Positions 1,205-37,075 of a stretch of 37,075 nucleotides of DNA are shown here, one piece after another. Position 1 is the stretch's first letter; each line of letters opens with the position of its first letter. The notes beneath the pieces are model-generated. The model saw only the letters and a program-made list of their open reading frames with translations. It had not been told where the DNA came from and ran no database searches. The position numbers and the translations under genes are program-made. The stretch comes from a virus, in the IMG/VR virus record IMGVR_UViG_3300047457_000538, positions 1 through 37,075 of that record; one strand, given 5' to 3'.

Positions 1205-1331
1205 TGTACGGCTCCTGTGTGTACATCGAGATGGCTTGGTTGCAGGCTTCGATGCGCTCTTGCTCTTCGAGCTGCTGCATCAGTTCGTCTTGGTGGTGCC
1301 ACCAAGAATCGTCGTCATCCCACGGACTCAC
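1191..1331 (-). CDS. Small acidic hypothetical protein
   Basis: A 46-residue frame rich in D, E, Q and H (it starts MSPWDDDDSWWHHQDEL) between the small membrane protein and ERF. The GTG at 1331 overlaps the stop of the upstream gene in a GTGA junction and has a G-rich stretch just before it, so I prefer it. An ATG at 1370 would give 59 residues but would overlap the upstream gene by over 40 bases. No domain is recognised. The position suggests an accessory of the early operon, possibly a small host-interaction protein, but nothing in the sequence shows a function. Confidence 0.5.
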   Translation of the reverse strand: MSPWDDDDSWWHHQDELMQQLEEQERIEACNQAISMYTQEPYNEPV

Positions 1332-7704: not shown

Positions 7705-8432
7705 TGGCAACCAAGAAGATTTCGCAGTTCAATTCGCTGGCGCAGGTGGACCTTGCGCCTTCCGCGGATGTGCTGCCCATCGTCGATACCGGCTCGACGG
7801 AAACGAAGAAGATCACCGCGCAGGCGCTTGTCGGCGGGTCTGTTTCCGACATGTCGGCGACATGGAACAACGTCGCCACGACCTTCAACGGCGTCAAGCT
7901 CGACGTGACCGACACGGCCTCGGCCGCCGGCTCCTTCCTGCTCAACCTGTTGGTCGGCGGGGCCGCGCGGTTCCAGGTGACCAAGGCCGGCAATGTCAGC
8001 GCTGCCGGCACACTCGCGGTCACGGGTGCATCGACCCTGACCGGCGCGGTGACGGGTTCTAGTTCCATCCGGTCTGCAAGCGATTCTGCCGGCATCGGGT
8101 ACACCAACGGCGCGGGCGGCACGGTCACGCAGGCGACGAGCAAGTCAACGGGCGTCACGCTCAACAAGATTTGCGGCGAGATTGTGATGAACAACGCAAC
8201 GCTCAATCGCGAGACGGCGGTGAGCTTCACGCTGACCAACAGCGCGATTGCGGCCACCGATGCGGTGATCGTGAACATCAAGTCCGGCGCGACGGCGAAC
8301 TCCTATAACGTAGCAGTCACCGCGGTGGCGGCGGGATCGTGCCGCATTCAGCTGCACAACCTACTTGGCGGCACCGACCTGTCCGAGGCGGTCGTGCTCA
8401 CTTTCGTGGTAATCAAGGCCGTGGCGGCCTGA
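7704..8432 (+). CDS. Virion surface/fibre-like protein with KKISQ module
   Basis: A 242-residue protein. The N-terminal 45 residues (KKISQFNSL then VLPIVDTGSTETKKITAQAL) match the KKISQL attachment module of the two fibre proteins at 32569 and 35079. The middle is a beta-rich shaft (about 70-130). The C-terminal 110 residues (GGTVTQATSKSTGVTLNKIC and a beta-rich remainder) form a domain I recall from many phage decoration or fibre proteins. Its place between TerL and portal, far from the other fibres, is notable. It is probably displayed on the virion or attached to the tail complex. Confidence 0.75.
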   Translation: MATKKISQFNSLAQVDLAPSADVLPIVDTGSTETKKITAQALVGGSVSDMSATWNNVATTFNGVKLDVTDTASAAGSFLLNLLVGGAARFQVTKAGNVSAAGTLAVTGASTLTGAVTGSSSIRSASDSAGIGYTNGAGGTVTQATSKSTGVTLNKICGEIVMNNATLNRETAVSFTLTNSAIAATDAVIVNIKSGATANSYNVAVTAVAAGSCRIQLHNLLGGTDLSEAVVLTFVVIKAVAA

Positions 8433-8445
8433 TGGGGAGACAGAT

Positions 8446-8730
8446 ATGGCGACGGCTATCACACTCGTATCGAACGCTAGCGCGACTGGTTCGTGGTTCC
8501 CGTGGCCGGGCGGCCGTGGTGAGTTCCGCGTGGAAGGCACCTTCCCCGGCACGGTGAAGCTCGAGTGCAAGGGGCCGAACGGCACCGCGCAGGACGTTGG
8601 TACGGACACGACCCTGACCGCCTCTGGCGGCGGCATCTTCGAGCTCGGTGCCGGCGAGATCCGCTGCAATATCGCCACGGCGACTGCCGTTTATGCGATG
8701 GCGCTGCGCATCCCTGACGCTGGTTTCTGA
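8446..8730 (+). CDS. Small beta-rich structural protein
   Basis: A 94-residue protein without charged clusters, rich in T, G and A, with alternating hydrophobic residues that suggest a small beta-sandwich (WFPWPGGRGEFRVEGTFPG near 17-35). Similar short proteins accompany fibre/decoration genes in phages. GGGGAGAC upstream is the ribosome site. The stop overlaps the following start in TGATG. A head decoration role is possible but unproven. Confidence 0.65.
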   Translation: MATAITLVSNASATGSWFPWPGGRGEFRVEGTFPGTVKLECKGPNGTAQDVGTDTTLTASGGGIFELGAGEIRCNIATATAVYAMALRIPDAGF

Positions 8731-8879
8731 TGCGTACTTGGCCGCGCACGGCCGAGCGAACGGCTGACCGGACGCTGCGGCGGGACGGGACCGGCGATGA
8801 CCAGCCGGTCAACAACCTCGTGACCGAGGCAGGCGACAACCTGACTCTCGAGAACGGCGGCTTCCTGCTCTGGGAGTGA
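8730..8879 (+). CDS. 49-residue hypothetical protein before the portal
   Basis: The frame starts in TGATG overlap with the previous gene and ends at the GTGA before the portal. The N-terminal 20 residues are arginine-rich; the C-terminus reads NLVTEAGDNLTLENGGFLLW, a motif I recall at the ends of small phage structural proteins. Perfect packing between neighbours supports it. Function unknown. Confidence 0.6.
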   Translation: MRTWPRTAERTADRTLRRDGTGDDQPVNNLVTEAGDNLTLENGGFLLWE

Positions 8880-8881
8880 CA

Positions 8882-10549
8882 ATGGCTGACTCACGCGCAA
8901 CTGAAGTGCTGGAAGGCTACGACCGTCTGAAGGGCGCGCGTGGGACATGGGAGCAGCACTGGCAGGAGGTGGCCGAGCGGGTCTGGCCGAGCATGGCCGA
9001 GATGACCGGCTGGCGCACGCCCGGCGAGAAGCGGTCGGAGAAGATATTCGACTCGACCGCGCAGCGCGCCCTGCCGCGCTTTGCCGCCGCGATGGACTCG
9101 ATGCTGACTCCTGCGACGCAGGTCTGGCACGGCCTGCATACCGGCATCCCCGAGCTCGACGAGAACGTCCAAGTGCAGCGCTGGTGCGATGCCCTGCGCG
9201 ACATCCTGTTCCGGCAGCGCTATGCCCCGACCGCCAACTTCGCCTCGCAGGCGTTCGAGTGTTACATGAGCCTCGGGGCGTTCGGCACATCGGCGCTGTT
9301 CATTGACGAGATTCCCGGCGTGACGCTGCGCTACCGCGCCATCCCGCTGTCCGAGCTCGTGATCGACCTCGACCATACTGGGCGTGTAGATACGGTGTAT
9401 CGCTGCTTCCAGTTGACGGCGCGGCAGGCGATGCAGATTCCGGGCTGGGCCGACAAGCTCCCGCGCGGCATCAAGTCTGCGGCCGAGTCGCGCGGCAACG
9501 ACATGTTCGAATTCGTGCACTGCGTGAAGCCGAACGGCGACTACAAGCCCGGGAAGGCTGGCGCGGAGGGGATGACGTACCAAAGCCGGTATGTTTCCCG
9601 TGAGGGCAATGTGCTGCTCGCTGACTCTGGCTATCGTTCGATGCCGTATGCGGTGGGTCGGTATGTCACCGGCCCGCGTGAGATTTATGGGCGGTCCCCT
9701 GCGATGGAGGCTCTGGCCGACATCAAGTCCTTGCAGGAGATGGAAAAGACCATGCTTCGGATGGCGCACCGCATGGTCGATCCCCCGCTCATTCTGTCCG
9801 AGGAGGGGGCCATCAATGCCTTCTCGGTGCGCCCCAATGCCCTAAACTACGGCTACCTCCGCGAGGACGGTACGCCGCTGGTGCAGCCGCTGATGACCGG
9901 CGGCAACCTGCCTATCGGCATCGAGATGTCCGACCAGAAGCGCAAGGCGGTGAACGATTCGTTCCTCGTCACGCTGTTCCAAATTCTGGTCGAGAACCCG
10001 CGCGTGATGACGGCGACCGAGGTGTTGCAGCGCGCGCAGGAAAAGGGCGCGCTGCTTGGCCCGACGATGGGTCGCCAGCAGTCGGAGTTCGTCGGTCCCA
10101 TCATCGAGCGCGAGCTTGACCTGCTGTCTGCGTCCGGCGCGCTGCCGATGCCGCCTCCGCAGCTCATGGACTATGTGATGGGTGGCGGTGAGATCCTGCC
10201 GAAGTACACCGGGCCGCTTGCTCGGCTGATGCGCGCCGAGGAGGCCGCCGGCATCCTGCGCACCATCGAGGCAATCCTGCCGGTCGCGCAGGCGTCTGGC
10301 GACATGAAGGTGCTGCGCCGCATCAACGCCGACCAGGCGGTCAAGGTCATTGCTGAAGCCAACAACGTGCCGGCCAAGGCGTTGCGCACCGACGAAGAGC
10401 TGGAGGCGATGGACATGGCTGAGCAGGAGGCTGCGCAGATGCAGTCGCTGTTGGCTGCTGCTCCGCTTGCCGGTCAGGCCGCCGAGCGGTTTGCGAAGGC
10501 AGAGCAGATAGCGGCGTCCGCGCCGCGGCGTGAAGTGCTTGGGATTTAA
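8882..10549 (+). CDS. Portal (head-tail connector) protein
   Basis: A 555-residue protein of the T7 gp8-like head-tail connector family. It should form the dodecameric ring at the capsid vertex through which DNA is pumped and ejected. Family marks are the N-terminal RWxW-type helix region with GTWEQHWQEVAERVWP, the SMLTPATQVWHGL segment (about 75-87) and the later long-helix region with NPRVMTATEVLQRAQEKGAL. The C-terminus is a methionine/alanine-rich coil. The ATG at 8882 has GGGAG upstream; a GTG at 8876 would add two residues. Confidence 0.92.
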   Translation: MADSRATEVLEGYDRLKGARGTWEQHWQEVAERVWPSMAEMTGWRTPGEKRSEKIFDSTAQRALPRFAAAMDSMLTPATQVWHGLHTGIPELDENVQVQRWCDALRDILFRQRYAPTANFASQAFECYMSLGAFGTSALFIDEIPGVTLRYRAIPLSELVIDLDHTGRVDTVYRCFQLTARQAMQIPGWADKLPRGIKSAAESRGNDMFEFVHCVKPNGDYKPGKAGAEGMTYQSRYVSREGNVLLADSGYRSMPYAVGRYVTGPREIYGRSPAMEALADIKSLQEMEKTMLRMAHRMVDPPLILSEEGAINAFSVRPNALNYGYLREDGTPLVQPLMTGGNLPIGIEMSDQKRKAVNDSFLVTLFQILVENPRVMTATEVLQRAQEKGALLGPTMGRQQSEFVGPIIERELDLLSASGALPMPPPQLMDYVMGGGEILPKYTGPLARLMRAEEAAGILRTIEAILPVAQASGDMKVLRRINADQAVKVIAEANNVPAKALRTDEELEAMDMAEQEAAQMQSLLAAAPLAGQAAERFAKAEQIAASAPRREVLGI

Positions 10550-20019: not shown

Positions 20020-20441
20020 TTGAGGTGCATCCGTTCGTCCCTGCTGACCTCGAGGAGTTGCGCCTCCAGCCGTCGCAGGAGTTCCTGGCGGCATTCGTGG
20101 GGCGTCCCGGATATGGGCAGGAGCTGGTCGATGCCGGCCCCTGTTACACCGCCAGAAGCGGCGGCAGGATTGTCTGCTGTGCCGGGGTGGTGAACCTGTG
20201 GGAGGGGCGGGCGTCGGCGTGGGCGCTGCTGTCTGCGGATGCGGGGCGGTGCATGACCGCGCTGCACCGGGCGGTGGTGGAGTTCCTTGACGGCTGCGGG
20301 ATCGAGCGGGTGGAGGCCTATGTGGTGCCGGACTTTATGCCCGGTCACCGATGGGCGAGAATGCTCGGGTTCCAGTTTGAGGGTACCCTGCGGGCGTTTC
20401 AGCGTGGGCAGGACATGGTCATGTACGCGAGGGTGAATTGA
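20016..20441 (+). CDS. GNAT-fold protein in the T7 gp13 position
   Basis: A 141-residue protein with GNAT acyltransferase features: an N-terminal strand-helix start (MIEVHPFVPADLEELRLQPS) and a C-terminal HRWARMLGFQFEGTLRAF followed by a final MVMYARV strand. The acetyl-CoA loop is not an obvious R/Q-x-x-G-x-G/A, so catalysis is uncertain. Such proteins occupy the place of T7 internal protein A (gp13), and the fold may act structurally. It lies between nozzle and core proteins with overlaps on both sides. Confidence 0.75.
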   Translation: MIEVHPFVPADLEELRLQPSQEFLAAFVGRPGYGQELVDAGPCYTARSGGRIVCCAGVVNLWEGRASAWALLSADAGRCMTALHRAVVEFLDGCGIERVEAYVVPDFMPGHRWARMLGFQFEGTLRAFQRGQDMVMYARVN

Positions 20442-21004
20442 TGGCAGATCCAGTCACCATAGCAGCTATCGTTGCCGCTACCGCAGCGGCAGGGTCATCC
20501 CTGATGGCAACCGGGCAGCAGCGGCAGGTCGGCGCCGCGCAGGCGCGCGCGCTCGAGGTTGAGGCCGGCGTTGCTCGGCAGCAGGCGGGCCTTGAGGTTG
20601 AGGCTCTCGGCCGCGAGACGCGCCGGCAGTTCGGCGAGCTGCGGGCGGCCGGTGCGCAGGCGGGTCTGACCGATTCGGTGACCTTCGGCGATGTATACAA
20701 GCAGGCCGCCACGGCTGCGGAACTTGATGCCCTGTCGCTTGCTTATCAGGGGGAGACGAAGGCTGGTGGCCTTCTGACCGAGGCGCGCATCACCCGGGCA
20801 TCCCGTCCGTCGTGGGTTCAGGGAATCCTGCAGGCAACTAGCGCGGCGGCTGGCGGTTATGCCGGCGCTGGCGGGACATTGCCGCAACGTGGGCCAAGGC
20901 AGTCGCAGTTGACCGGGGTGCAAGTGACGGGTCGACGGGTGCCGACGACTCTCACGACGACCACGCAGCGCGGCTATCCCGGCGCCGGGTTGGCCCCGAG
21001 GTGA
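20441..21004 (+). CDS. Internal virion protein (T7 gp14-like)
   Basis: A 187-residue protein with a hydrophobic N-terminal helix (about 5-23, TIAAIVAATAAAGSSLMAT) followed by a long helical A/Q/E/R-rich stretch (to about residue 70) and a flexible T/G/R-rich end. This layout is that of the T7 gp14-type core protein, which is ejected first and forms a pore in the outer membrane. The ATG at 20441 overlaps the stop of the GNAT gene (TGATG); an in-frame TTG at 20438 is not preferred. Confidence 0.8.
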   Translation: MADPVTIAAIVAATAAAGSSLMATGQQRQVGAAQARALEVEAGVARQQAGLEVEALGRETRRQFGELRAAGAQAGLTDSVTFGDVYKQAATAAELDALSLAYQGETKAGGLLTEARITRASRPSWVQGILQATSAAAGGYAGAGGTLPQRGPRQSQLTGVQVTGRRVPTTLTTTTQRGYPGAGLAPR

Positions 21005-21007
21005 TGT

Positions 21008-22663
21008 ATGGCGAAGCTTGAGTTCTACCGCCAGCAGGTTGTCCCGCGCATCTCGACGCCGAGCGCGCGCGGGCTTGCGGCTGTCGGGACTCAAGCCGCG
21101 GAGACTGCGGAGGCCGTTGCGCGCGGGGCGCAGGCGTTTGGGCAACTTGCTGCCGATCTCGATCAGCTGCGGGTGGAGGACGCCTACAACCAGTTGCGTG
21201 ACCGCCAGACCGACCTGATGATGAACCCAGAGACCGGGTTCTCATCGAAGCGGGCCGGCGATGCTGTGGACCCCACATTCATCCAGCGGTACTCCGGCGA
21301 TTTCGACAAGGCGATTGACGAGATTGCCAACGGTCTCCCGAATGGGCGGCAGCAGGATCTGTTCCGTCGCCGCGCCGGCATGGCGAAGGCGGAATACAGC
21401 GACTCGCTGATGCGGCACGTTCTGCGCGAGACCGACCAGTACCGCGACAACGTCTACAAGGGTGCTGTCGCCACCGAGACGAACCAAGCCGCGCTCAACT
21501 GGCGCGACCCGGCGAAGATTGCCGACTCCATCGGGCGCATCGCCGCGAATACCGCGCTGTGGGCTGACCGCGCCGGTATTACTGGGGATGCGCTCATGGC
21601 GGCCCAGATGGACAACCTTGCCACCCTGCACTCGGTGGTGGTCAATGCCGCGCTCGACAATGGCGACGTGGAGTATGCGGCGAAGTACCTCGACGCCAAC
21701 AAGGCATCCATCCGCGCCGACCGACTGGTTGATCTCGAGGGCAAGGTTGCTGCGGAGACCGACCTGCGCGCATCCGCCCGCATCGCGGACGATGTCATCG
21801 CCAAGTTCAAGGGCCGCATCCCGAGCGAGACCGAGGTGCGCCAAGCGGTGCGCGAAATTGCCGGCGACAATGTGAAGGTGCGCGACGATGCGACCCAAGA
21901 GGCGCTGGCGCAGGTGCAGTCGATGCTGCGCGACCGCGAGCGGCAGCAGCAGGAGGTCATGGCTGCGGTCTACGGTCGGCTTGAGGCGAACGGCGGCAAC
22001 CTCGCCGCGCTGCCGGCCTCGCTGCGGGCGGCGATTCCCGGCGACAAGATTGGTCAGGTCCGCAACTATGCAGACAATCTGCGCGGCGGCGGCAAGATAG
22101 AGACCGACTGGGAGGTCTATTACAAACTGCGGACCAACCCGCAGCTGCTGAAGCAGACCGATTTGCTGGCGCTGCGCGGTGCGCTTGAGGACACGGAGTT
22201 CAAGGAGCTGGCGCGACTGCAGTCAGAGGCGAGCAGCGCGCCGGAGGTGGCGCAGACGGAGGTCCAGACCACGACGCAACGCATGGGGATGCGTCTTGCG
22301 GAAATCGGGGTCGATCCTAGCCCGAAGCCTGGAACTAAAGCTGCCAAGCGTGTTGCGCAGGCGTGGTCATTGCTAGATACCAACATCGCCGCTGCAGAGC
22401 GGGCGGCTGGTCGCAAGTTGACCCCGGAGCAACGGAACGCGGAAATTGACCGGCTGTTTGCTAGCGTAGAAGTTCGCGGCACCTTGTTTGGCACCGAAGA
22501 GGTAGCGCTGTTTGAGGTCAAGCCGGGGCAGGAGGTTGTTTCGGTCGTGGTACCTGAATTTGACCGCAGGCAAATCACCAATGCACTGCGCGCCGCCGGT
22601 AAGCCGGTGACCGAGCAGAACATCCAGTATTACTTCCAAAAGGCGCAGGGGCTCGTGAAGTGA
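21008..22663 (+). CDS. Internal virion core protein (T7 gp15-like)
   Basis: A 551-residue, almost entirely helical protein (N-terminal ISTPSARGLAAVGTQAAETA, long E/A/R-rich body). By position it is the counterpart of T7 gp15, part of the ejected core that builds the periplasmic conduit. It is shorter than gp15 (747 residues). I see no transglycosylase or other catalytic motif. Its stop overlaps the giant gene start in GTGA. The last 120 residues have slightly AT-richer codons. Confidence 0.78.
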   Translation: MAKLEFYRQQVVPRISTPSARGLAAVGTQAAETAEAVARGAQAFGQLAADLDQLRVEDAYNQLRDRQTDLMMNPETGFSSKRAGDAVDPTFIQRYSGDFDKAIDEIANGLPNGRQQDLFRRRAGMAKAEYSDSLMRHVLRETDQYRDNVYKGAVATETNQAALNWRDPAKIADSIGRIAANTALWADRAGITGDALMAAQMDNLATLHSVVVNAALDNGDVEYAAKYLDANKASIRADRLVDLEGKVAAETDLRASARIADDVIAKFKGRIPSETEVRQAVREIAGDNVKVRDDATQEALAQVQSMLRDRERQQQEVMAAVYGRLEANGGNLAALPASLRAAIPGDKIGQVRNYADNLRGGGKIETDWEVYYKLRTNPQLLKQTDLLALRGALEDTEFKELARLQSEASSAPEVAQTEVQTTTQRMGMRLAEIGVDPSPKPGTKAAKRVAQAWSLLDTNIAAAERAAGRKLTPEQRNAEIDRLFASVEVRGTLFGTEEVALFEVKPGQEVVSVVVPEFDRRQITNALRAAGKPVTEQNIQYYFQKAQGLVK

Positions 22664-25600
22664 CGGATTACCGCCGACTGGTGGAGGAGGAGAACCCGTA
22701 CCTCGACCTGGTGCGCCAAGGTCAGAACGAGTCGCTGCGCTCGGCGATGTACGGTGCGGCGCAGACCAACCCGGATGTCGAGGCCGATCTCCGCAAGCTC
22801 GCCGAAAAGGTCAATGTCCCGGTGGAGACCGTGCGGATTGACCGCAAGGAGATTGAGCGGCAGGCAATCCTTGGTGAGGTTGACTATGACGGGCTGATCA
22901 AGGATGCGCCTGTCACCGCGAACTTCCTCTCGGAGCAGGCCGATGTCGCGCGCGACGATGTCAGCGTGCTGACCCGCATCGACCGAACATTCCGTGCGAT
23001 TGGGCAGGGATGGAAACAGGGTTCCGTTCAAGACCGGGTGGAGCCGCTGAACTGGCGTTGGCTGTCCGGCGAGATCCTCTCGCCGTCCGAGCAGGAGGAG
23101 CGGCGCAAGCTGCTCGGCGAGATGCAGGCGCTGGGCAAGACCGTGGAGCGCGGCGACAACCCGGTTTCGTGGTTCCTCGGACAGACCGGCTACACCGGGC
23201 GCCAGTTGGTGTCCTCGGTGCGTGAAGGAGCCAAGGGCGCGATTCCCGGCGCGGTGGCCGGTGCCGGCGCGGCGGCGCTCATCGGCCAGTTGGGCCCGCA
23301 GGTGGCGCTGCCGGAGGAGCTTGTCACGGTCCCCGGCGGATTCTTCTTTGGCGGTCGCGCAGGGTTCATCACCGCCACGACGGTCTACAACTACAAGGCC
23401 GAGGCCGGGTTCGCGTTCGCCGAGTACGAGCAGATGCGGGACGAGTCCGGCCAGCTGCTCGACCCTGCGGTCGCGCGCGGAGCTGCGGCTGCGGCGGGCC
23501 TGCTGAACGCCGGCCTCGAGACGGTCGGCGACATCGCGCTCGCCAAGATGATTCCGGGGCTCGACCGGTTGGTCGGCGCGGGATCGCGTGAGGCCATCAA
23601 GACCCTGCTGGCGCGCCCGACCTTCCGCAATGCCATCGCGCAGGCGGGCAAGAAGTGGCTGACGGCAGCGAGCGTTGAGGGCGTGACCGAGTCGTTGCAG
23701 GAGCTCGGGGTCATCCTTGGGCGCGAGTTGGCGCAGGGCGTCAGCGGGCAGGAGTTCGCGCCGGAGGCGGCAGGCAGCGACCTGATGCGGGTGCTGGAGT
23801 CCGGCGCGGCGGGATTTGCCGGCGGTGCCGGCGTCGGTCTGCCGGGTGCCGCGATCTCCACGGTCAGCAACGTGCGGGAGGTCCGCAAGGCCAACCAGAC
23901 CCAGCAGTTCATGCGGGCGCTCGGCGAGGCGGCCGGCGAGTCGAAGCTCCGCGAGCGGCTGCCGCAGACGTTCCAAGACTACGTCGCCCGCATCCGCGAG
24001 CAAGGACCGGTCGAGAATGTCTTTATCCCCGCCGACCAGTTCACCCAGTACTGGCAAAGCCAGAACGTCGACCCGGAGCAGATTGCCAACGAGGTCGGCG
24101 CGACCAACTACGCCGAGGCGGTTGCCACCGGCAGCGATGTGGTCATCCCCATCGAGACCTACGCGACCCGGCTCGCCCCGACCCAGCACCACAACGGCCT
24201 GATGAAGGACGTCCGGCTGGCGCAGGGCGACCTGACCATGCGGGAGGTAGAGGCGCTTGAGGCCCGCCGCACCGAAATCGAGACCGAAATCCAGACCATG
24301 ATGGAGCAGGAGGGGGTGGAGACTGAGACCCCCGCCATCGGGCAGATCAAGCAGGACGTCCTAGGACAGCTTCTGGGGCGATTCGACAGGGCGACCGCAG
24401 ACAACTATGCCACCCTCTACTCGCGGGCTATAAACAGTCTGGCGCAGCGTGGCGGCATGGACCCGATGGAGCTGCACCGCCAGTATGGGCTGCAGGTGGT
24501 CACCCCGCTGCCGGACATCCTGCAGGCCCGGGCCGGGGTGGACACCGCGCTCGACCCCCTCATCGACCGGCTCCGCAGCGGCGACATCCCGAGCCGGCGG
24601 GAGATTTACGGCAAGTCCCTGGCCGAGTTCCTGCGTGAGCGGGGCGGGGTGCAGGATCAGGGCGGCGAGCTGTCTGCCCGCGATGCCAAGCTCTGGGACC
24701 GCGACAACCGGCGGGTCGGCGAGAAGGCGCTGGTGTCTGACAAGGGCATGTCGTTCGACGAGGCCCGCGAGCTCGCGCTCGAGGCCGGGTTCGAGGTCGG
24801 TGAGACCGAGCAGACATTCCTCGATGCCATGGACCGGGAGTTCCGTGGCGAGGGCGTGTTCATGCCCGGAAAGGAGCAGGCCAGTCTGGCCGAGCTCGCT
24901 GATGCGCTGGCGGGATTGGAGGAGTTCCTCGGGCAGCAAGGCATCGACGTCACGACCACCGACAACGCGACCATCAAGGCGCTGATCGCCAAGGCGAGCG
25001 AGGGGATGGAAGGCGCGCCTGCCATGGAGTTTGAGCAGGCTGCGGACAGGCTTTCCGCAATTCATAACTTGACTGCCGAGAATTTGATTTATGCCGACAA
25101 AATTGGCGGGCTTGCTGTGCCGTCAGTTGCCGTTGTGCCGCAGGGACAAGCCATAGAAGGGTTTGGCGAAATCACTTTGCTCGGATCAAAGCGGCTTGTC
25201 GATCCAGAGGCGGAGCCTGTTTTTAGTGCTGACGCATATTCAGCAACATTCCCGAAGCCGGAATATCGCAAGGTTAAAGCCGCGACTGCGATGGAAGTTG
25301 CAAAAAGATTCCGCGCATTTGATGAGCGATATAGCGACAGCGTTGAAGACGTCATAGTTGATTATTCGGTAAGCAAGCCAGACCCGCAGCGCATCATTGA
25401 CTTCATGCTGCGAAGCCGCTCTGCAATGGCTGCTTATCTGCAAAGCACAGGAGAATCAGTCCCGTCTCCGGTAATGCGCGCCGTTGATTTGCGCGTTCCA
25501 TTCGTAACTGATCCGCAAGTTAAGGAGTTTGTTGAGCGATCTGGGTATGCCGAGCTTCTGAACATGAGGCCGGAAGAAAGCCCTGATTTATGGGCTCAAT

Positions 25601-28600
25601 TTAGCAATATCGTTGCGGATGCGGCCTCAAGGTACGCAACAGAATCTTCCCCGGACAACCCAGATGTTGCCGCTACTCTTAGGGAGTCCATCGAAAGTCG
25701 ATTATTCCGTGATGGCGCATTGACGTATAACGGACTGGCCGCTGTTCTTACTAGTTACAGAGACGCCGAAAGAAGCGAAATCAATCGTCAAGAAACTGAG
25801 GACGCATTAACTGACGCAATTGGAGACAGAAAATCTGAATTCAAGTCGTGGATTGAATCTGAAATCATCCCGATGTTTGGCCAGCCAAGAATAAAGATTG
25901 GCGGCAAGCTGGTTCCGTACACGCTGGGTAACATCGTTGATGCGATGACTGGCGCTGTGAAGAATGTCGAAAAGACATTTACTTATGGGTCTGGGAAGGT
26001 CAGGGCCGCTCAATCAATGCGATTCCGCAATCTTGAGCAAATGCGGGAGTATGCGAAAACTTCGATTCGTTCGGAAAAAGAAGTCGCCAAATACAGGAAA
26101 GAAGCCGATAATCTTTTGGCGCAGTATCGCAGCGCGGTTATTGAGTACAGCAAGCATGGCGATACTTGGGATGCGCTTGATGAGTCAATGGAGGCAATCG
26201 CCAAAGGCGGCACAACACAAGCAGGCATACGCAAAGCGCTCTCCAAAAACTTCAAGGTTGGAAGCATTCCAGATGATGTTATTGACTTAGCCGTTCGTGC
26301 GTCAAAGTCGCTTCTTCTTGCGCCTGTCCCATATTTTGAGGCGAAGCCGCAACGAGCCGTGGCGCTTAATGAATTCAGCGGGGCTGTTGTCCCGTCTGGA
26401 ACAAGCAAGGCTGCGATAGATGTTCTTGAGAAAAGCGGCATCCAATGGACTTACTACGATCCGCAAAGTGAAGGGTCGCGCGAAGCTGCTATTGCAGATT
26501 TGCAGGGACAGCTTCCGGACACGCTTTTCCAAGCCGTCTCTCCCGAAGACAAGCGCGGCTACATCCAGTTCGGTGCCGACCGCAAGGTCCGCATCGGCCT
26601 CCTAGAGAAGGCCGACCTCTCGACCTTCATCCACGAGACCGGCCACTTCTACCTCGAAGTGCTGCTCGACATCGCCGAGCGCGCGGATGCCAGCCCGCAG
26701 ATAAAGGCCGATGCCGAGACGCTGATGAAGTGGTTCGGGGTCAAGTCCCGCGCCGAGATCGGCGTCAAACAGCACGAGGAGTTCGCCCGCGCTAATGAGG
26801 CGTACCTGATGGAGGGCAAGGCTCCGAGCGCCGAGCTGCGGACCATCTTCCAGCGGGTGCGGGCGTGGATGACGCTGGTCTACCGGACGCTGACCAACCT
26901 CAACGTGCGGATGAACGACGATGTCCGCGGCGTGTTCGACCGCATCTACGCGACCGACAAGGAGATTGAGTCGGCCAATGCCGAGCTCGATGTGCGGGAT
27001 GTGTTTGCCAGCGCGCAGGATGCCGGCATGACGGAGGCCGAGTTCGCGGCCTACAAGAAGACCGCAGAGGCTGCGGGTGAGGCTGCGAAGGAGAAGCTGC
27101 AGGGGCGGCTCATCCGCGAGTACCAGCGCGAACGCGAGAAGTGGTGGAAGGCCGAGCGCGCCAAGATGCTGGAGAAGGTCACCGAGGAGGTGGACTCCTC
27201 GCCGGCTTACCGCGCAGCCGCGATCCTGACCGAGGGCAAGCTGCCGGACGGCATCGCCGTCAAGCTCTCCCGCCAGGCGCTTGAGAACCGGTTCGGCTCG
27301 GAGTACCTGAAGCGGATGCCCCGGTTCCTGCGGAAGGTCTATACCAAGGACGGCGGCACCGACATCGACACCGCAGCCGAGATGCTGGGGTTCGAGAGCG
27401 GCGAGGCGCTGATGACGGCGCTCATCAACCTGCGTCCGCGCAAGGAGCTCATCGAGGCCGAGACCGCGAACCGCATGGCTGCGGAGTTTGGCGACATGCG
27501 GATGGACGGGACGATTGCCGACGAGGCGATGGCCGCTATCCACAATTCCGAGCGCGCCAACGTCCTGAAGGCGGAGCTCGTCGCCATCCGCCGGTTGCAG
27601 CGGCAGGTGCGCCCGGTGGTCGCTGCCCTGCGCCGTGAGGAGGCCGAGCAGCGCCGCGCCGGCATGGACATGGTCGATGCTGCCATGGCCGACCCGCAGG
27701 CGTTTGCCCGGGCCGCAGCCGGTCGCATCGGGCAGATGATGGCGCGGGACATCTCGCCCGGGAAGTACCTGCTCGCCGAGCGTCGCGCATCGAAGGCGGC
27801 GTTCGATGCGATCCGCAGGAAGGACTACAACGCGGCTGCTATCGAGAAGCAACGCGAGCTGCTGAACCACTACATGTACCTGGAGGCCCGCAAGGCGCAG
27901 CAGCAGCTTGACCGCATCTACGACTATGCGAACAAGTTCGACAAGAAGGCGACCCGCGAGCGGCTGGCGAAGGCCGGCGGCGGCTACCTCGACCAGATTG
28001 ACGCCATCCTCGAGAAGTACGAGTTCCGGCGGGTGCCGCTGAAGGTGCTTGGCCGCCGCCAGTCGCTGGTCGATTTCGCCGAGCAGCAGGCCGCGCTTGG
28101 CCTTATTGTCAACGTCCCCGACCAGCTGCTCGATGAGGCGCGGCTGGTCAACTACAAGAACGCATCGGTCGATGAGCTGCGGGCGGTCTACGACACCGTG
28201 CGGAACATCGAACATCTCGCACGGCTGAAGGACAAGCTGCTGCGGAAGGCTGCTGCGGTGGAGTTCCAAGACACCAAGGACGAGCTCATCAAGGCCGCTA
28301 CCGAGTCTGACCGGCTTGCCACTACCGGCGAGCTCCGCATTCCCAACACGGTCGGCGAGCCGCTGCTCGCGCGCGGGGCCAAGGCGTGGCGGCGGTTCGA
28401 TGCCGCCATCCTCAAGGTCGAGCAGATGGTCGAGTGGCTGGACGGCGGCAAGATTAATGGGCCGTGGGCGCGGTTCGTGTTCGACCTGGCGAACGACGCG
28501 CAGGTGAAGGAGTACGAGCTCCACGCCATGGTCACGAAGCAGATTCAAGACCTGACCGAGTCTATGCCGAAGGGCTGGGGCGATTCCCTGACAGACAAGG

Positions 28601-30375
28601 TCGATGTGCTGCTGCCCGGGATTGAATCCCCGGTAACCCGTTACACCCTTATCAGCATTGCCATGAACGTCGGCAATGACAGCAGCTACCAGCGGCTGCG
28701 GGACGGGTACGGGTGGAGCGATTCCTCCATCAACGCCGCGCTCGGCAAGTTGGCGAAGGAGGATTGGGACTACATCCAAGGCATCTGGGATGCGGTCAAT
28801 TCCCTGTGGCCGGAGATCAAGGCGCTTGAGGAGCGCACGTCCGGGGTGGCGCCGCCAAAGGTTGAGCCGCGTGTGGTACAGACCCGGTTCGGCGACTATC
28901 GCGGCGGGTACTTCCCGCTGGCCTATGACCCGAAGCTCTCGGCTGTCGGCGACAAGCAGGCCGAGGCGACCGAGTCGGTCTCGCAGTTCATGTCGAACGC
29001 CTACGGTCGCGCGCGGACCGACCGCGGCTACACCAAGCAGCGCGTCGAGAACTTGAAGGCGGCGGTGCGGCTCGACTACGAGCAGGTGCTGACCAGCCAC
29101 CTGACCAAGGTCATCAAGGACATCTCGCACCGCGAGGCCATCTTCAGCCTCAACAAGCTCCTCAAGGACGAGGAGATTAAGGAAGTGATGATTGACCGGC
29201 TGGGCGAGGCTCGCTACCGGGAGTTCACCAAGTGGATGCAGGTGCTGGTGTCCGACCGGGCCGACACCCTGCACTCCGGGAACGTGTTCTCGCGCGCGAT
29301 TATGCAGTTCCGCACCAACATGGCCATTGTGACAATGGGTTGGAAGGTCACGACCATGATGGCGCAGTTTGCCGGCATCGGCCCCGCGCTCGACACCGTC
29401 AAGCCGCGCTTCTTCACGCAGGCGCTCATCGACTACAACCGGTTCGGGCCGTGGTCTACGCACCGCGAGACCCTCGAGCAGTTCGTTTATGAGCGGTCTG
29501 GCGAGATGAAGTTCCGATCCGACAACATCGACCGGGATGTCCGCGACAACCTCCGCAAGCTCCGGGGCGAGGGCGGGCCGTTGGCCGCCATCCGCCGGTC
29601 GGCGTTCTACCTGACCGCCATGGCCGACCGACAGGTCACCATCCCGACGTGGCTCGGCGCGTACCGTCAGGCGCTCGCAGAGGGCCTTGGGGAGGAGGAC
29701 GCCATCCGGGCAGGGGACAGGGCGGTCCGGCTCTCGCAGGGCGCAGCGGGCGCTAAAGACCTTGCAGCGGTGCAGCGCGACAACGAGCTGATGAAACTGT
29801 TGACTATGTACTACACCCCGTTCTCGGTGCTGTATGCCCGGATGCGGGATGTCGGTGCGACCACCCGCCGGGTGCGCGACATGCCCCGGGCGGTCGCCCG
29901 GATGCTGGCGCTGGTCATCCTGCCGGCGGTGCTAGGCGAAATCTTGGCGGGGCGCGGCCCGGAGGAGGACGAGGACGAGACCTGGTGGGCAATCCGCAAG
30001 ATGCTGCTCTATCCGCTGGCCTCAATCCCGATTCTCAAGGAGGGCTCTGGGGTGGTCGAGGCTAGCATGATAAACTTGACCGGCGAGGGCGAGATGGCGT
30101 ATCAGCCGAGCTGGCGGTTGTCGCCGGTCGCCGGGTCGATTGAGAAGGTCGGGCGCACGTTCATGCGGACGTCGGATGTGCTGTCCGGGGATCGGGAGTT
30201 CAACGACGTCGCATGGGACATGTTTGAGAGCAGCGGTTACATTTTCGGGTTGCCGACGAGGCAGGTCAGGATTAGCGGTGAATACACCATGGATGTCCTG
30301 AATGACGAGCGGAACCCGGAATCTCCGCAGCAGTTCATGTACGAGGTACTGTACGGACCGCCGAAGGAGCAATGA
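22660..30375 (+). CDS. Giant internal virion/large polyvalent protein (T7 gp16 position)
   Basis: A 2571-residue protein, about twice T7 gp16 (1318). The N-terminus (to about 420) is helical with glycine/alanine-rich hydrophobic segments (about 186-210 and 381-405) that could enter membranes. Residues about 795-1290 are an AT-richer inserted module. HETGH at 1325-1329, in an FIHETGHFYLEVL helix, marks a zincin peptidase. The rest is long helical regions with a hydrophobic segment near 2420-2440 and a conserved gp16-type end. I see no transglycosylase motif. It is probably ejected with the DNA and forms part of the conduit; the zincin and insert may act inside the host. GTG start, coupled to gp15-like. 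Confidence 0.85.
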   Translation: MTDYRRLVEEENPYLDLVRQGQNESLRSAMYGAAQTNPDVEADLRKLAEKVNVPVETVRIDRKEIERQAILGEVDYDGLIKDAPVTANFLSEQADVARDDVSVLTRIDRTFRAIGQGWKQGSVQDRVEPLNWRWLSGEILSPSEQEERRKLLGEMQALGKTVERGDNPVSWFLGQTGYTGRQLVSSVREGAKGAIPGAVAGAGAAALIGQLGPQVALPEELVTVPGGFFFGGRAGFITATTVYNYKAEAGFAFAEYEQMRDESGQLLDPAVARGAAAAAGLLNAGLETVGDIALAKMIPGLDRLVGAGSREAIKTLLARPTFRNAIAQAGKKWLTAASVEGVTESLQELGVILGRELAQGVSGQEFAPEAAGSDLMRVLESGAAGFAGGAGVGLPGAAISTVSNVREVRKANQTQQFMRALGEAAGESKLRERLPQTFQDYVARIREQGPVENVFIPADQFTQYWQSQNVDPEQIANEVGATNYAEAVATGSDVVIPIETYATRLAPTQHHNGLMKDVRLAQGDLTMREVEALEARRTEIETEIQTMMEQEGVETETPAIGQIKQDVLGQLLGRFDRATADNYATLYSRAINSLAQRGGMDPMELHRQYGLQVVTPLPDILQARAGVDTALDPLIDRLRSGDIPSRREIYGKSLAEFLRERGGVQDQGGELSARDAKLWDRDNRRVGEKALVSDKGMSFDEARELALEAGFEVGETEQTFLDAMDREFRGEGVFMPGKEQASLAELADALAGLEEFLGQQGIDVTTTDNATIKALIAKASEGMEGAPAMEFEQAADRLSAIHNLTAENLIYADKIGGLAVPSVAVVPQGQAIEGFGEITLLGSKRLVDPEAEPVFSADAYSATFPKPEYRKVKAATAMEVAKRFRAFDERYSDSVEDVIVDYSVSKPDPQRIIDFMLRSRSAMAAYLQSTGESVPSPVMRAVDLRVPFVTDPQVKEFVERSGYAELLNMRPEESPDLWAQFSNIVADAASRYATESSPDNPDVAATLRESIESRLFRDGALTYNGLAAVLTSYRDAERSEINRQETEDALTDAIGDRKSEFKSWIESEIIPMFGQPRIKIGGKLVPYTLGNIVDAMTGAVKNVEKTFTYGSGKVRAAQSMRFRNLEQMREYAKTSIRSEKEVAKYRKEADNLLAQYRSAVIEYSKHGDTWDALDESMEAIAKGGTTQAGIRKALSKNFKVGSIPDDVIDLAVRASKSLLLAPVPYFEAKPQRAVALNEFSGAVVPSGTSKAAIDVLEKSGIQWTYYDPQSEGSREAAIADLQGQLPDTLFQAVSPEDKRGYIQFGADRKVRIGLLEKADLSTFIHETGHFYLEVLLDIAERADASPQIKADAETLMKWFGVKSRAEIGVKQHEEFARANEAYLMEGKAPSAELRTIFQRVRAWMTLVYRTLTNLNVRMNDDVRGVFDRIYATDKEIESANAELDVRDVFASAQDAGMTEAEFAAYKKTAEAAGEAAKEKLQGRLIREYQREREKWWKAERAKMLEKVTEEVDSSPAYRAAAILTEGKLPDGIAVKLSRQALENRFGSEYLKRMPRFLRKVYTKDGGTDIDTAAEMLGFESGEALMTALINLRPRKELIEAETANRMAAEFGDMRMDGTIADEAMAAIHNSERANVLKAELVAIRRLQRQVRPVVAALRREEAEQRRAGMDMVDAAMADPQAFARAAAGRIGQMMARDISPGKYLLAERRASKAAFDAIRRKDYNAAAIEKQRELLNHYMYLEARKAQQQLDRIYDYANKFDKKATRERLAKAGGGYLDQIDAILEKYEFRRVPLKVLGRRQSLVDFAEQQAALGLIVNVPDQLLDEARLVNYKNASVDELRAVYDTVRNIEHLARLKDKLLRKAAAVEFQDTKDELIKAATESDRLATTGELRIPNTVGEPLLARGAKAWRRFDAAILKVEQMVEWLDGGKINGPWARFVFDLANDAQVKEYELHAMVTKQIQDLTESMPKGWGDSLTDKVDVLLPGIESPVTRYTLISIAMNVGNDSSYQRLRDGYGWSDSSINAALGKLAKEDWDYIQGIWDAVNSLWPEIKALEERTSGVAPPKVEPRVVQTRFGDYRGGYFPLAYDPKLSAVGDKQAEATESVSQFMSNAYGRARTDRGYTKQRVENLKAAVRLDYEQVLTSHLTKVIKDISHREAIFSLNKLLKDEEIKEVMIDRLGEARYREFTKWMQVLVSDRADTLHSGNVFSRAIMQFRTNMAIVTMGWKVTTMMAQFAGIGPALDTVKPRFFTQALIDYNRFGPWSTHRETLEQFVYERSGEMKFRSDNIDRDVRDNLRKLRGEGGPLAAIRRSAFYLTAMADRQVTIPTWLGAYRQALAEGLGEEDAIRAGDRAVRLSQGAAGAKDLAAVQRDNELMKLLTMYYTPFSVLYARMRDVGATTRRVRDMPRAVARMLALVILPAVLGEILAGRGPEEDEDETWWAIRKMLLYPLASIPILKEGSGVVEASMINLTGEGEMAYQPSWRLSPVAGSIEKVGRTFMRTSDVLSGDREFNDVAWDMFESSGYIFGLPTRQVRISGEYTMDVLNDERNPESPQQFMYEVLYGPPKEQ
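25040..26540 (+). other. AT-richer inserted module within the giant virion gene
   Basis: Base composition changes sharply inside the open frame. By hand count, 24661-24720 has 45 G+C of 60, while 26041-26100 has 26 of 60, and GC-rich coding resumes near 26530. The segment codes for about 500 residues, from HNLTAENLIYADKIGGLAVP to a YFEAKPQRAV...LFQ end. From memory these edge blocks recur as a unit in large polyvalent proteins of phages and mobile elements. It is in frame and without stops, so it is a maintained domain, not debris. Confidence 0.7.
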
Positions 30376-32556: not shown

Positions 32557-32568
32557 GAGGGATGAGGC

Positions 32569-33036
32569 ATGGCTGACAAGAAAATTTCCCAGTTGACCAG
32601 TGCGAGCACGCCGCTTGCTGGGACTGAAGTTCTGCCTATTTTGCAGAGCGGCAGCACGATGAGTGTGTCGGCGGAGAACATCACGGCCGGTCGCGCAGTT
32701 TCTGCCGCGAGCATGACGGTCAGCTCCGGCAATGTTGCATTCAGCAGCACCGGTCAGCGCATCACGGGCGACATGAGCAGCGCGACGATTGCCAATCGCC
32801 TTGCGTTCCAAACATCTACGGCAAACAGCAACAGCAGCGTCACCGCAATCCCGAATGGCACCGCTGTCGGCGCATCGTTTTCTGTCATCAACAACTCTAC
32901 CCCGACCAACGCATCGCTGGGCGGTGTGACAATCAACTCAACCGAAGTCCGTTTTCAATCTGCCATCACCGGCACCGGCACGTACCTGCCGATGACGTTC
33001 TATACGAACGGAGCCGAGCGTGCTCGCTTCAGTTCG
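32569..33036 (+). repeat. Dispersed direct repeat shared by two fibre genes
   Basis: The first roughly 465 bases of the gene at 32569 are repeated at 35079-35540 with substitutions. Many stretches are identical, for example the 20 bases ending CAGCATGACGGTCAG-type sequence near 32710 and CGGCACGTACCTGCCGATG near 32976 and 35489. The copies are in the same orientation about 2.5 kb apart and could recombine, deleting the gene at 33442. Confidence 0.75.
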
Positions 33037-33438
33037 GCCGGCGGTTTCTCTGTCGGCACCACGACCGACCCCGGCGCTGGCAAACTTACCGCGGCGAACG
33101 GCATCGTCTCTACCCGTGTTAATCCGCGCGTCTCAAGCACGACCTCAACCGCGTCCATCACGCCGGACATCAGCGCGTTCGACCAGTATTGCGTTACAGC
33201 CCAGGCAGCTACGCTTGCAATTAATGCCCCGACCGGCACTCCTGTTGATGGCAACAAGCTGACCTTCCGCATTCTTGATGACGGCACGAGCCGTACATTG
33301 AACTGGGACGCCACATTCACCGCCATCGGCGTGACCATCCCGACCTCTACGACCATCAACAAGACGACCTATGTTGGCTGCGTTTACAACGCATCGGCTA
33401 CGCGTTGGGATGTGGTTGCCGTGACGACGCAGGCTTGA
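32569..33438 (+). CDS. Accessory fibre protein, KKISQ module with tip A
   Basis: A 289-residue protein. Residues 1-155 (MADKKISQLTSASTPLAGTE and a beta shaft ending near FYTNGAERARFSSAG) are closely similar to the start of the protein at 35079. The C-terminal 100 residues (VNPRVSSTTSTASITPDISA then a KTTYVGCVYN block) form a separate beta domain I recall at the ends of many phage tail proteins. It is probably a secondary fibre or spike-associated binder. GAGAGGGATGAGG upstream is the ribosome site. Confidence 0.78.
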   Translation: MADKKISQLTSASTPLAGTEVLPILQSGSTMSVSAENITAGRAVSAASMTVSSGNVAFSSTGQRITGDMSSATIANRLAFQTSTANSNSSVTAIPNGTAVGASFSVINNSTPTNASLGGVTINSTEVRFQSAITGTGTYLPMTFYTNGAERARFSSAGGFSVGTTTDPGAGKLTAANGIVSTRVNPRVSSTTSTASITPDISAFDQYCVTAQAATLAINAPTGTPVDGNKLTFRILDDGTSRTLNWDATFTAIGVTIPTSTTINKTTYVGCVYNASATRWDVVAVTTQA

Positions 33439-33441: not shown

Positions 33442-35064
33442 ATGGCTGATCGTTATTGGGTCGGCGGTTCTGGTACTTGGAACACGACCAGCACCACAAA
33501 CTGGTCCACCTCTTCTGGTGGGTCAAGTGGGGCTTCGGTTCCGACCACTTCTGACAATGTGATCTTCGACCAGAACTCCACTTACACCGTCACTCTGACC
33601 GGTGCTTTGTCGTGCGCGAACCTTACGGTTTCTCAGGGTACGGTGACGTTTGCGCAAGGAACCGCCCCCACGCTTACTGTCGCGGGGACCGCATTCAACA
33701 TAAAGTCCGGCACCGTTTGGAACAGCACCGGTACGGTGACATTTACGTCTACCGGGTCTGTCACCATCACGACGAACTCGGTCACGCTTAGCTGCGGATT
33801 TACGCTCAACGGGGCTGGTGGGACGTTCACGCTCGCTGGCAATCTTACGCTTGGCACGACCAGAACTTTCACGCTTACCGCAGGCGCGTTGGTGCTGTCT
33901 AACAATGTTCTGACTGCTGGCATCTTTAGCAGCAGCAACTCTAATACGCGGTCAATAGATTTTGGCAGTTCTGGCAAGATTGTACTGAACGACAGTAGTG
34001 GGACAACCCTCTCCATCCTGTCGATGGCGACTTCCACGAATTTCAGTTACGCAGGGACTTCGCTCATTGAGCTAAATGCGTCCAATGCGAGCGCCACAAA
34101 AGACATCAAGCACGGCGGTACCGAAAGCAGCGCGATGAATGTCAGCTGTCTGTCGTCCGTGGCGGTCACCTACAATCTGGACGGGGTCGTCAAAGACCTA
34201 GTTTTGAACGGCACCAATCAATCGCTCGCCATTACTGCGGGTTCGGTGATCTATGGAAGCCTGACCAATGTCGGAGGCACGACGGCTTTTGCATCCGGCG
34301 GCGGAGTTCTAACCTTCGGTGCCACTAGCGGCACGAAAACAATAAACTCGGGCGGCGCTACGGTAAATTTCCCGCTGACGATAAATGGCTCTGGCGGTAC
34401 GTTTCAGCTGGCTGCCAACCTCTCGATGATTTCAACGCGTGCGTTTACGCACACCAACGGCACGCTCGATCTAAATGGCAAGATACTGACTGTAGGCACG
34501 CAATACGTTACGGCTAGTGGCACCAAGAACCTGACGTTCAACGGTGGCACCGTGGTCTGCCCTGCTGCCACAACCACCGCCTGGAACAACGCCCAACCGA
34601 CCAACTTCACGACAACGGCTGGCACTGGCACCGGCAAGATCAGCATGACGGCCGCGACCGCCAAGACCTTTGTCGGCGGGGGTTCTATATACAATTGCAC
34701 CCTGTCCAACGACGGGGCCGGTGCGCTCACCGTCAGCGGCAGCAACACCTTCACGACGATTGCCAACGGAGTGCAGCCGACTACGTTTACGTTTACCTCT
34801 GGCACGACGCAGACGGTCACAAATTGGAGCGTGAACGGGGCGGCCGGTAACCTTGTTACGATTGGCGCGACGACGACATCGGCGGCTACATTGTCCAAGT
34901 CTAGTGGGACGGTCAGCTCCGACTATCTAAGCCTCTCATACAGCACCGCGACAGGCGGGGCTTCGTGGTATGCCGGGGCTAACAGCACCGACAGCGGAAA
35001 CAACACAGGATGGATTTTTGCTGCGGCTCCAAGTTCTTCTGCTAAATTCATGCTGCTTTTGTAG
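33442..35064 (+). CDS. Beta-repeat adhesin-like fibre protein
   Basis: A 540-residue, T/S/G/N-rich protein beginning MADRYWVGGSGTWNTTSTTN. It consists of repeated beta-strand turns; NGAGGTFTLAGNLTLGTTRT (about 122-142) and NGSGGTFQLAANLSMISTRA (about 313-333) are related internal repeats, suggesting a beta-solenoid that has grown by duplication. Codons are less GC-rich than in the core genes. It lies between the two KKISQ fibre genes. The role is presumed surface binding; no enzyme motif is seen. Confidence 0.75.
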   Translation: MADRYWVGGSGTWNTTSTTNWSTSSGGSSGASVPTTSDNVIFDQNSTYTVTLTGALSCANLTVSQGTVTFAQGTAPTLTVAGTAFNIKSGTVWNSTGTVTFTSTGSVTITTNSVTLSCGFTLNGAGGTFTLAGNLTLGTTRTFTLTAGALVLSNNVLTAGIFSSSNSNTRSIDFGSSGKIVLNDSSGTTLSILSMATSTNFSYAGTSLIELNASNASATKDIKHGGTESSAMNVSCLSSVAVTYNLDGVVKDLVLNGTNQSLAITAGSVIYGSLTNVGGTTAFASGGGVLTFGATSGTKTINSGGATVNFPLTINGSGGTFQLAANLSMISTRAFTHTNGTLDLNGKILTVGTQYVTASGTKNLTFNGGTVVCPAATTTAWNNAQPTNFTTTAGTGTGKISMTAATAKTFVGGGSIYNCTLSNDGAGALTVSGSNTFTTIANGVQPTTFTFTSGTTQTVTNWSVNGAAGNLVTIGATTTSAATLSKSSGTVSSDYLSLSYSTATGGASWYAGANSTDSGNNTGWIFAAAPSSSAKFMLLL

Positions 35065-35078
35065 AGGAGTGATTAGAC

Positions 35079-35744
35079 ATGGCTGACAAGAAGATTTCCC
35101 AGTTGAGCAGCGCGAGTACGCCGCTCGCCGGCACAGAGATTCTGCCCATCGTGCAGAGCGGCAGCACGGTGAGCGTGTCTGCGGCCAATGTCACCGCTGG
35201 TCGAGCCGTCTCCGCTGCGAGCATGACGGTCAGTTCTGGCAACCTGACGTTCAGCAGCACCGGGCATCGCGTCAGCGCTGACATGAGCAATGCGACGGTT
35301 GCCAATCGCCTGTTCTTCCAGACCTCTACTGCCAACAGCAACTCCACGCTGGGTGTGCTGCCGAATGGCACGGCGACGGGCGCGGCGGTCAGCTGCATCA
35401 ACAACAGCGATCCGACAAACGCATCATTCATCGGCCTTGTCAGCACAACCACCGCGCATCGCGTTCAGTCCGCAATCACAGGCACCGGCACGTACCTGCC
35501 GATGGCGTTTTTTACTAGCGGTACCGAAAGGGCGAGAATCGACACTAGCGGAAACGTGGTTGCCGGTGGATCTGTTGCGCTTTCCACCACCGCGACGGAT
35601 GGGTTCCTGTACGTCCCGACCTGCGCCGGCACGCCGACCGGCACGCCGACTGCTATCACCGGCATGGCACCGATTGTCGTGAACACTACGAACAACAAGC
35701 TGTACTTCTACAGCGGCGGTTCGTGGCGGGATGCCGGGCCGTAA
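35079..35744 (+). CDS. Accessory fibre protein, KKISQ module with tip B
   Basis: A 221-residue paralog of the protein at 32569: residues 1-155 align along their length (MADKKISQLSSASTPLAGTE, FQTSTANSNS, ITGTGTYLPMAFFTSGTERA). The tip differs: TTATDGFLYVPTCAGTPTGT followed by VNTTNNKLYFYSGGSWRDAG, a C-terminal domain common in tail fibres of other phages. It therefore has the same base and shaft but another binding end. It is the last late gene and stops one base before the minus-strand HNH gene. Confidence 0.78.
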   Translation: MADKKISQLSSASTPLAGTEILPIVQSGSTVSVSAANVTAGRAVSAASMTVSSGNLTFSSTGHRVSADMSNATVANRLFFQTSTANSNSTLGVLPNGTATGAAVSCINNSDPTNASFIGLVSTTTAHRVQSAITGTGTYLPMAFFTSGTERARIDTSGNVVAGGSVALSTTATDGFLYVPTCAGTPTGTPTAITGMAPIVVNTTNNKLYFYSGGSWRDAGP

Positions 35745-36942: not shown

Positions 36943-37075
36943 TGTTTGTTCTCCTTGACGATGGGACGGGCAACGAGACGGTGCCGCTCGTTGTCGTGGT
37001 TGAAGGCCTCGGCTGCATCGAGTGCGGCCTGCGCCTGGTTGATGTCGAAGTAGGGGTTTGGCGGGTGGCCGGCGT
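36939..37075 (-). CDS. Partial gene of unknown function (C-terminal 45 codons)
   Basis: A frame entering from the right edge encodes the C-terminal part of a protein, starting AGHPPNPYFDINQAQAALDA and ending in IVKENKQ. Its TGA overlaps the GTG start of the next gene (GTGA). It continues outside the window; the helical charged end is not diagnostic. Confidence 0.55.
   Translation of the reverse strand, partial: AGHPPNPYFDINQAQAALDAAEAFNHDNERHRLVARPIVKENKQ

Follow-up and report, generated by a model that had tools for sequence, protein, structure and literature searches.

Polyvalent proteins, as described by Iyer et al. in 2017 (PMC5512222), are very large, multidomain proteins encoded in virion gene neighbourhoods, in which zincin, large polyvalent protein associated (LPD) and PBECR, ADP-ribosyltransferase (ART), GNAT or RadC domains occur and are exchanged as a mosaic. 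Autoproteolysis by the zincin was proposed for them in the same work, without a site, and the BECR fold was defined there by a conserved histidine located in an N-terminal helix, with 4-5 strands after it (PMC5512222). A protein that resembles them in size, setting, domain types and mosaic domain exchange, hereafter the carrier, is encoded by the IMG/VR virus record IMGVR_UViG_3300047457_000538, which was analysed over its whole length of 37,075 nucleotides (the window). Comparison with relatives indicates that BPP-1/AF-like podoviruses have a hypervariable payload slot in a polyvalent protein of the internal-virion type, and that a low-G+C segment of this carrier is one of the payloads found there. 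The explanation that we prefer, with a probability of about 0.6, is that the slot is exchangeable, that payloads were gained horizontally as units ending in an [FLY]xQ motif, that the carrier would be ejected and that its zincin would release an ART-fold payload at FEQ and LFQ. The slot, its borders and occupants, the motif statistics and the co-occurrence of LFQ with the zincin were derived from sequence, while the fold was predicted. The features of the carrier that concern the slot are as follows.

22660-30375, + strand: giant polyvalent protein of 2,571 amino acids with a GTG start (open frame; phrog_9880, E=0)
24565-24987, + strand: conserved left anchor domain of the slot, amino acids 636-776, ending IKALIAKASEGM (hidden Markov model over the relatives)
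25030-25038, + strand: left border motif FEQ, amino acids 791-793 (end of DNA homology to relatives with other payloads)
25039-26532, + strand: exchangeable cassette, a low-G+C effector module, amino acids 794-1291 (G+C and third-position G+C; absent or replaced in relatives)
26524-26532, + strand: right border motif LFQ, amino acids 1289-1291 (border statistics and limit of DNA homology)
26548-27219, + strand: zincin metallopeptidase domain (alignment A1 of the zincin domain; motif)

The results of our comparisons with relatives showed that the content of the slot changes while its flanks are kept. By tblastn, the carrier frame matched BPP-1, AF, HU1, UFJF_PfDIW6 and Carin1; its counterparts are Bbp10 of Bordetella phage BPP-1 and the giant proteins of the Pseudomonas phages AF, HU1 and UFJF_PfDIW6, and it corresponds to the protein of the AF gp16 region. 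Twelve IMG/VR loci matched the carrier at up to 97%, and in every locus that spans the segment the homology to the window stops at 25009-25031 and restarts at 26525-26548, with different content between. This content was about 450 amino acids in L001 and L005, about 1,350 in L002, L003, L004 and L011, and about 145, acetyltransferase-like, in L012. When L030-L039 were added, seven unrelated contents were found on flanks 76-97% identical, and blastp of the slot of the window against the slots of those relatives found no similarity. The slot is empty in UFJF_PfDIW6 and HU1 (VRFDQTEDGARGFIQFG), whereas the module of the window also occupies it in Carin1, Ab9, L040 and L089.

A wider survey was anchored on the zincin domain that follows the slot (alignment A1) and took in 112 more fetched loci, about 115 loci overall. 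The slot lay between the conserved left domain and the zincin, with lengths from 15 to about 1,370 amino acids, and its contents formed 64 clusters, empty ones included, a few of which are imperfectly delimited; the empty state was common to 14 Pseudomonas-type loci. Pfam families assigned to 53 slot contents were ART-PolyVal (18), GNAT (7), LPD3 (6), PBECR5 (5), PBECR3 (4), DUF7178 (4), LPD23 (3) and zeta toxin (2), and GGDEF, RadC, ddrB-ParB, MuF_C, PBECR1 and PBECR2 were found once each. L002 has a slot of three units, the central one of which is carried alone by L036, cut at FYQ/FFQ joints. The module also occurs as a stand-alone gene in Vibrio chromids, as in Vibrio parahaemolyticus (L023:7992-9629), where it is a free 545-amino-acid gene beside ndk.

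Horizontal exchange of the cassette, proposed in the initial annotation from sequence alone, is thus strongly supported, since relatives with 77-97% flank identity hold unrelated payloads, more distant ones hold nothing, and the module is also found as a gene of its own in a Vibrio chromid. The comparison with close homologs that it had called for showed that the segment is not common to all of them and is replaced or absent at exactly that place. In blastn against phage records, neither the cassette nor the 15-37 kb region had a match, and the module alone had no near match in IMG/VR or GTDB, where relatives were reached only with a four-member alignment.

Two observations on other slots were made in passing. 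The slot of L006 (12350-12744) holds a cassette of about 135 amino acids (39% G+C, third-position G+C 0.29) without a convincing family match, a relative of which is found in the slot of L038. The GGDEF domain (2.6e-16; L101 slot 8360-10033) and the zeta-toxin domains (3e-19; two further slots) are unusual cargo for an internal virion protein.

The base composition of the cassette sets it apart from the carrier. Between about 25040 and 26480, sliding G+C was 0.46-0.52, down from 0.65-0.70, and it had recovered by about 26600. The G+C content was 0.677 for amino acids 1-783, 0.500 for amino acids 796-1291 and 0.646 for amino acids 1300-2571, and third-position G+C (GC3) was 0.872, 0.482 and 0.878, respectively. 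Per stretch of 100 codons, GC3 stayed at 0.44-0.52 throughout the block, against 0.78-0.95 in the remainder of the open reading frame (ORF), and it was 0.78-0.87 in the other large genes of the window, with the exception of 33442-35064 (0.66). The codon use of the cassette is foreign to the carrier. The drop inside one uninterrupted frame that had been noted earlier was found again in the open frame 22660-30375, and the suggested check of sliding G+C and codon usage left the block clearly distinct (GC3 0.48 versus 0.87-0.88). The values given then, 75% falling to 43%, came from single 60-base samples and did not hold, the true contrast being about 66% versus 50%. The limits given, 25040-26540, lie within a few bases of the cassette (25039-26532) as set by the ends of DNA homology at the Q codons of FEQ and LFQ, and the peptides named for the start and end of the block, including the EAKPQRAV...LFQ unit, are both present.

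Such a block might come from an assembly chimera or contamination, and the exact cassette DNA was found in one record only (blastn against phages). The borders, on the other hand, agree to the codon with independent contigs carrying other payloads, the frame is unbroken across the block, and homologs of the module occupy the same slot in Carin1, Ab9, L040 and L089, so that the probability of an artefact is close to nil.

Pairwise DNA identity between relatives falls at the Q codon on both sides of the slot. Similarity ends at TTTGxGCA[AG] (F-x-Q) on the left and begins at TTTTTCCAA or similar (F-F-Q/L-F-Q) on the right. An [FLY]xQ motif was present within 25 amino acids before the zincin in 55 of 60 representatives (shuffles 12.8±3.0, maximum 23 of 1000). 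On the left, it closely follows the anchor domain in 26 of 26 (shuffles 9.3±2.1, maximum 16). The motif occurs at 41 and 36 per 1000 amino acids at the borders and at 7 inside the slots, about five times more rarely, and its strict form is found inside slots mostly at the joints of units.

Because the border pattern had been chosen after examples were seen, independent support was sought in other giant proteins, which were collected by searching for the PBECR5 module. The borders of the module in these proteins are spelled LFQ, FS or FMP, and the left spelling always equals the right one (Q/Q 32, S/S 6, M/M 4, mixed 0). The zincin clade of the window was found in 26 of 32 LFQ-spelled proteins and in 0 of 14 FS- or FM-spelled ones (p=1.6e-7), and four of the six LFQ-spelled proteins without it are cut off by contig ends. 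A different HExxH was present in 11 of the 14 FS- or FM-spelled proteins, compared with 2% of shuffled proteins. A second set, fetched by ART domains, gave this zincin clade in 10 of 13 proteins with LFQ and 0 of 15 with another spelling (8 of 11 and 0 of 14 without the three contigs shared with the first set). The module tree requires no fewer than 6-7 changes of spelling. Of 5 independent pairs, about 4.4 showed the zincin changing in step, and none showed the opposite.

Nine giant proteins (L145, L158, L165, L173, L175, L186, L190, L192 and L208) have borders FSRR, FSLK, FSPK, YSV or FMP, not LFQ, and most of them carry another HExxH in the same chain.

Since the left and right spellings agree and the spelling tracks the zincin clade, we infer that the border motif would be a protease-site code cut by the zincin in cis. 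Three points weigh against this interpretation: the border expression was picked after viewing the data, the link between spelling and zincin depends on a small number of independent changes (sign test p 0.06-0.25), and common descent may be behind part of it. The motifs could instead be recombination seams or generic inter-domain linkers, with the zincin just another effector. DNA homology ends exactly at the motif, and exchange by short homology would look seam-like; moreover, some polyvalent proteins with a zincin (N4 vRNAP) are packaged uncut according to Iyer et al. (PMC5512222). Against such seams, the left and right borders are alike in amino acids and not in DNA (see the two border sequences above), and seams or linkers do not account for a spelling that goes with the carrier protein and the zincin clade. 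We consider the seam or linker explanation unlikely, although of all the alternatives it is the one that keeps most weight, and prefer a border code read by the zincin.

The identity of the payload was examined on the 496-amino-acid module, whose residue numbers plus 795 give those of the protein and which is divided as follows.

25045-25278, + strand: N-terminal half of the beta core, module residues 1-78, with invariant H802, S822 and D858 (invariant columns; AlphaFold2 model)
25279-26319, + strand: mostly helical insertion of about 350 amino acids inside the core, module residues 79-425 (AlphaFold2 secondary structure)
26320-26532, + strand: C-terminal half of the beta core, with invariant Y1225-F1226-E1227 (YFEAKPQRAV), outside the Pfam PBECR5 match (conservation; AlphaFold2)

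Pfam PBECR5 (PF18814) matched amino acids 797-934 (3e-21, 76.7 bits with a cut-off of 25), about the first quarter of the module, while 51 homologs could be aligned with it from end to end (alignment A3), with H7, G22, S27, G41, D63, P70, Y430, F431, E432 and P450 invariant. NCBIfam and PADLOC gave nothing above cut-off, and no solved structure was found by sequence. AlphaFold2 returned one confident fold (pLDDT 95.9, pTM 0.85), in which strands 3-9, 28-32 and 43-47 pair with strands 431-433, 444-450 and 467-471 across the 350-residue helical insertion; the model of a compact homolog of 392 amino acids, L216, reached pLDDT 94.9 and pTM 0.90. The top VIA-align match of the module was CteC with NAD+ (Z 6.2, 157 aligned, module 1-489 with chain 59-273), and the top two matches of L216 were Tpt1 (Z 7.0, 98 aligned) and DarT with ADP-ribose (Z 6.9, 133 aligned).

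CteC, Tpt1 and DarT were the only high matches that span both halves of the beta core, and they lead both lists, with all Z values under 8. Because these three members of the ADP-ribosyltransferase superfamily lead both lists and bridge the halves of the sheet, we read the predicted fold as an ART fold, and the invariant H7, S27, D63 and E432 stand in the order expected for an ART (R-S-E or H-Y-E type, with Arg or His in strand 1 and a catalytic Glu). Contrary to its published label as an RNase, the modelled module is likely an effector with an ART fold, and ADP-ribosylation by it is possible. Other structural neighbours were set aside: fragments of serine racemase and of cystathionine synthase matched over no more than about 45 C-terminal residues, and helical structures (sigma factors, channels) covered only the insertion.

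The reading as an ART fold has its own difficulties. A Z of 6-7 alone falls within the range reached by unrelated models, the Foldseek matches in the PDB were not significant by E-value, and profile-profile comparison with DarT, KptA and ART-PolyVal was not significant. A DarT/ART-PolyVal control failed as well, so the profile comparison has little power. The window record had no Pfam match to DarT (PF14487) at E 0.001 and none to KptA/Tpt1 (PF01885).

According to the published label, the module would be a BECR-fold RNase that uses H802 and a Ser/Thr active site to cut host or phage RNA, perhaps crRNA. The Pfam match (PF18814, 3e-21), the definition and prediction of the family as an RNase by Iyer et al. 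in 2017 (PMC5512222) and the invariant His and Ser all favour it. In both confident models, however, the invariant His lies in the first strand, ahead of the first helix, and not in an N-terminal helix as in BECR proteins. The best-conserved block (YFE..K..R) is 400 residues downstream, outside the Pfam match, where it completes the sheet, and no BECR structure was among the matches, an absence that is inconclusive. An RNase is doubtful on these grounds, a shade more so than the seams discussed above, and an ART fold is preferred.

The position of the carrier among virion genes bears on how a payload might reach its target. The remaining features needed here are these.

20438-21004, + strand: internal virion protein, T7 gp14-like, upstream of the carrier (phrog_418, 1e-10)
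21008-22663, + strand: structural lysozyme/endolysin-like virion protein, upstream of the carrier (phrog_10475, 3.5e-58)
22747-23016, + strand: LPD22 (large polyvalent protein associated domain 22), amino acids 30-119 of the carrier (Pfam, 7e-16)

The window is the record of a short-tailed phage with terminase, portal-type adaptor, protease, major head and tail tube genes, and the neighbours of the carrier gene encode an internal virion protein, a structural lysozyme, tail proteins and a head protein, that is, a virion gene setting. Several disparate domains (LPD22, the PBECR5 module and the zincin) are joined in one polypeptide of 2,571 amino acids. The zincin has the HExxH and conserved downstream Glu of a metallopeptidase: HETGH lies at 26632-26646 (amino acids 1325-1329) and is followed by a conserved QHExFARxxE, of which QHE..AR..E is invariant in alignment A1. 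The gene order, with genes for an internal virion protein and a structural lysozyme upstream, suggests that the carrier would be part of the virion and reach the cell along with the DNA.

We infer packaging, ejection, cleavage, activity and target as follows. The carrier would be made late, packed as an internal protein and ejected into the cell together with the DNA. The zincin that immediately follows the slot would cut at FEQ and LFQ, as in a polyprotein, and free the 496-amino-acid payload. The payload would be an ART-fold enzyme with H802, S822, D858 and E1227 as likely NAD-site residues and a large helical insertion that may serve substrate choice. Once freed, it would modify a host macromolecule or a defence component early in infection. 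Given the enzyme families in the slot, an action of the payload on the host may reasonably be expected. A structural spacer that serves particle assembly or DNA ejection, and not the host, would also be at home among virion genes; the slot can be empty, however, as in 14 loci, and its occupants belong to enzyme families of conflict systems, which makes a spacer very improbable and an effector the better choice.

A wider reading, which we hold tentatively and at somewhat less than even odds, is that polyvalent proteins are true polyproteins with a border code specific to the zincin clade, and that the PBECR5 "RNases" form a new ART-fold branch of effectors marked by a giant helical insertion. 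The code would be [FLY]xQ for the present zincin clade and of FS or FMP type for others; payloads would enter a fixed slot with "module + border" as the unit and be released inside the host by the zincin that the phage encodes. If this were true, effectors could be delimited by rule in thousands of giant phage and plasmid proteins that are now unannotated, with a direct route to mining injected anti-host and anti-defence enzymes. The old guess of zincin processing of polyvalent proteins would gain a named, testable site, and a Pfam family labelled as a nuclease would call for tests of ADP-ribosyltransferase activity. The LFQ motif is absent from the text of PMC5512222, and literature searches, which left subscription papers mostly outside, found nothing that joins polyvalent proteins and LFQ, nothing on PBECR5 by name and no proteomics for Carin1 or another carrier homolog. 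Mass spectrometry of BPP-1 named only two capsid proteins.

Elsewhere in the window, a direct repeat of 276 nucleotides, 80% identical, was found at 32557-32832 and 35067-35342 (also 32954-33017 and 35464-35527), whose copies begin two neighbouring genes (ORFs 32569-33438 and 35079-35744) behind a tail-spike-like gene. The ORF at 33442-35064, between the two copies, has 540 amino acids, no PHROG match, a G+C content of 0.559 and a GC3 of 0.66, below its neighbours. Since the homology in L006 jumps from the first repeat copy to the second, the intervening 2.5 kb looks deletable or exchangeable. In relatives (L001 13249-14690; window 1-1320 and 36973-37075) the right end of the window runs directly into its left end, which makes it probable that the record is a circularly permuted and almost complete genome.

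Comparison with the known systems showed both likenesses and differences. What sets the present case apart from the account of polyvalent proteins in PMC5512222 is that there is one defined slot, which may be empty and whose borders are exact to the codon, and that the border spelling tracks the zincin clade. The N-terminal part of the module matches PBECR5 (PF18814), a predicted phage RNase, well over the cut-off, whereas the conserved unit is 496 amino acids and not about 140, has a C-terminal invariant Glu block and has a predicted fold nearer to ADP-ribosyltransferases. CteC, a mono-ADP-ribosyltransferase (PMC10810742), shares with the modelled module a split beta core and a helical insertion before the strand of the catalytic Glu, and its order R65-S97-D134-E220 resembles H802-S822-D858-E1227. 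It differs from the module in that there is no detectable sequence similarity, the module has His for Arg, the insertion is about 350 amino acids compared with about 40 in CteC, and hosts and targets are unrelated. DarT, a DNA ADP-ribosyltransferase toxin, and KptA/Tpt1 are the best structural neighbours of L216, without a Pfam match and with profiles that are not significant. Bbp10 of BPP-1 is an orthologous carrier in which a PBECR1 domain, framed by FDQ and FYQ, sits in the same slot; it differs from the carrier of the window in its payload and in lacking the B part of the left anchor.

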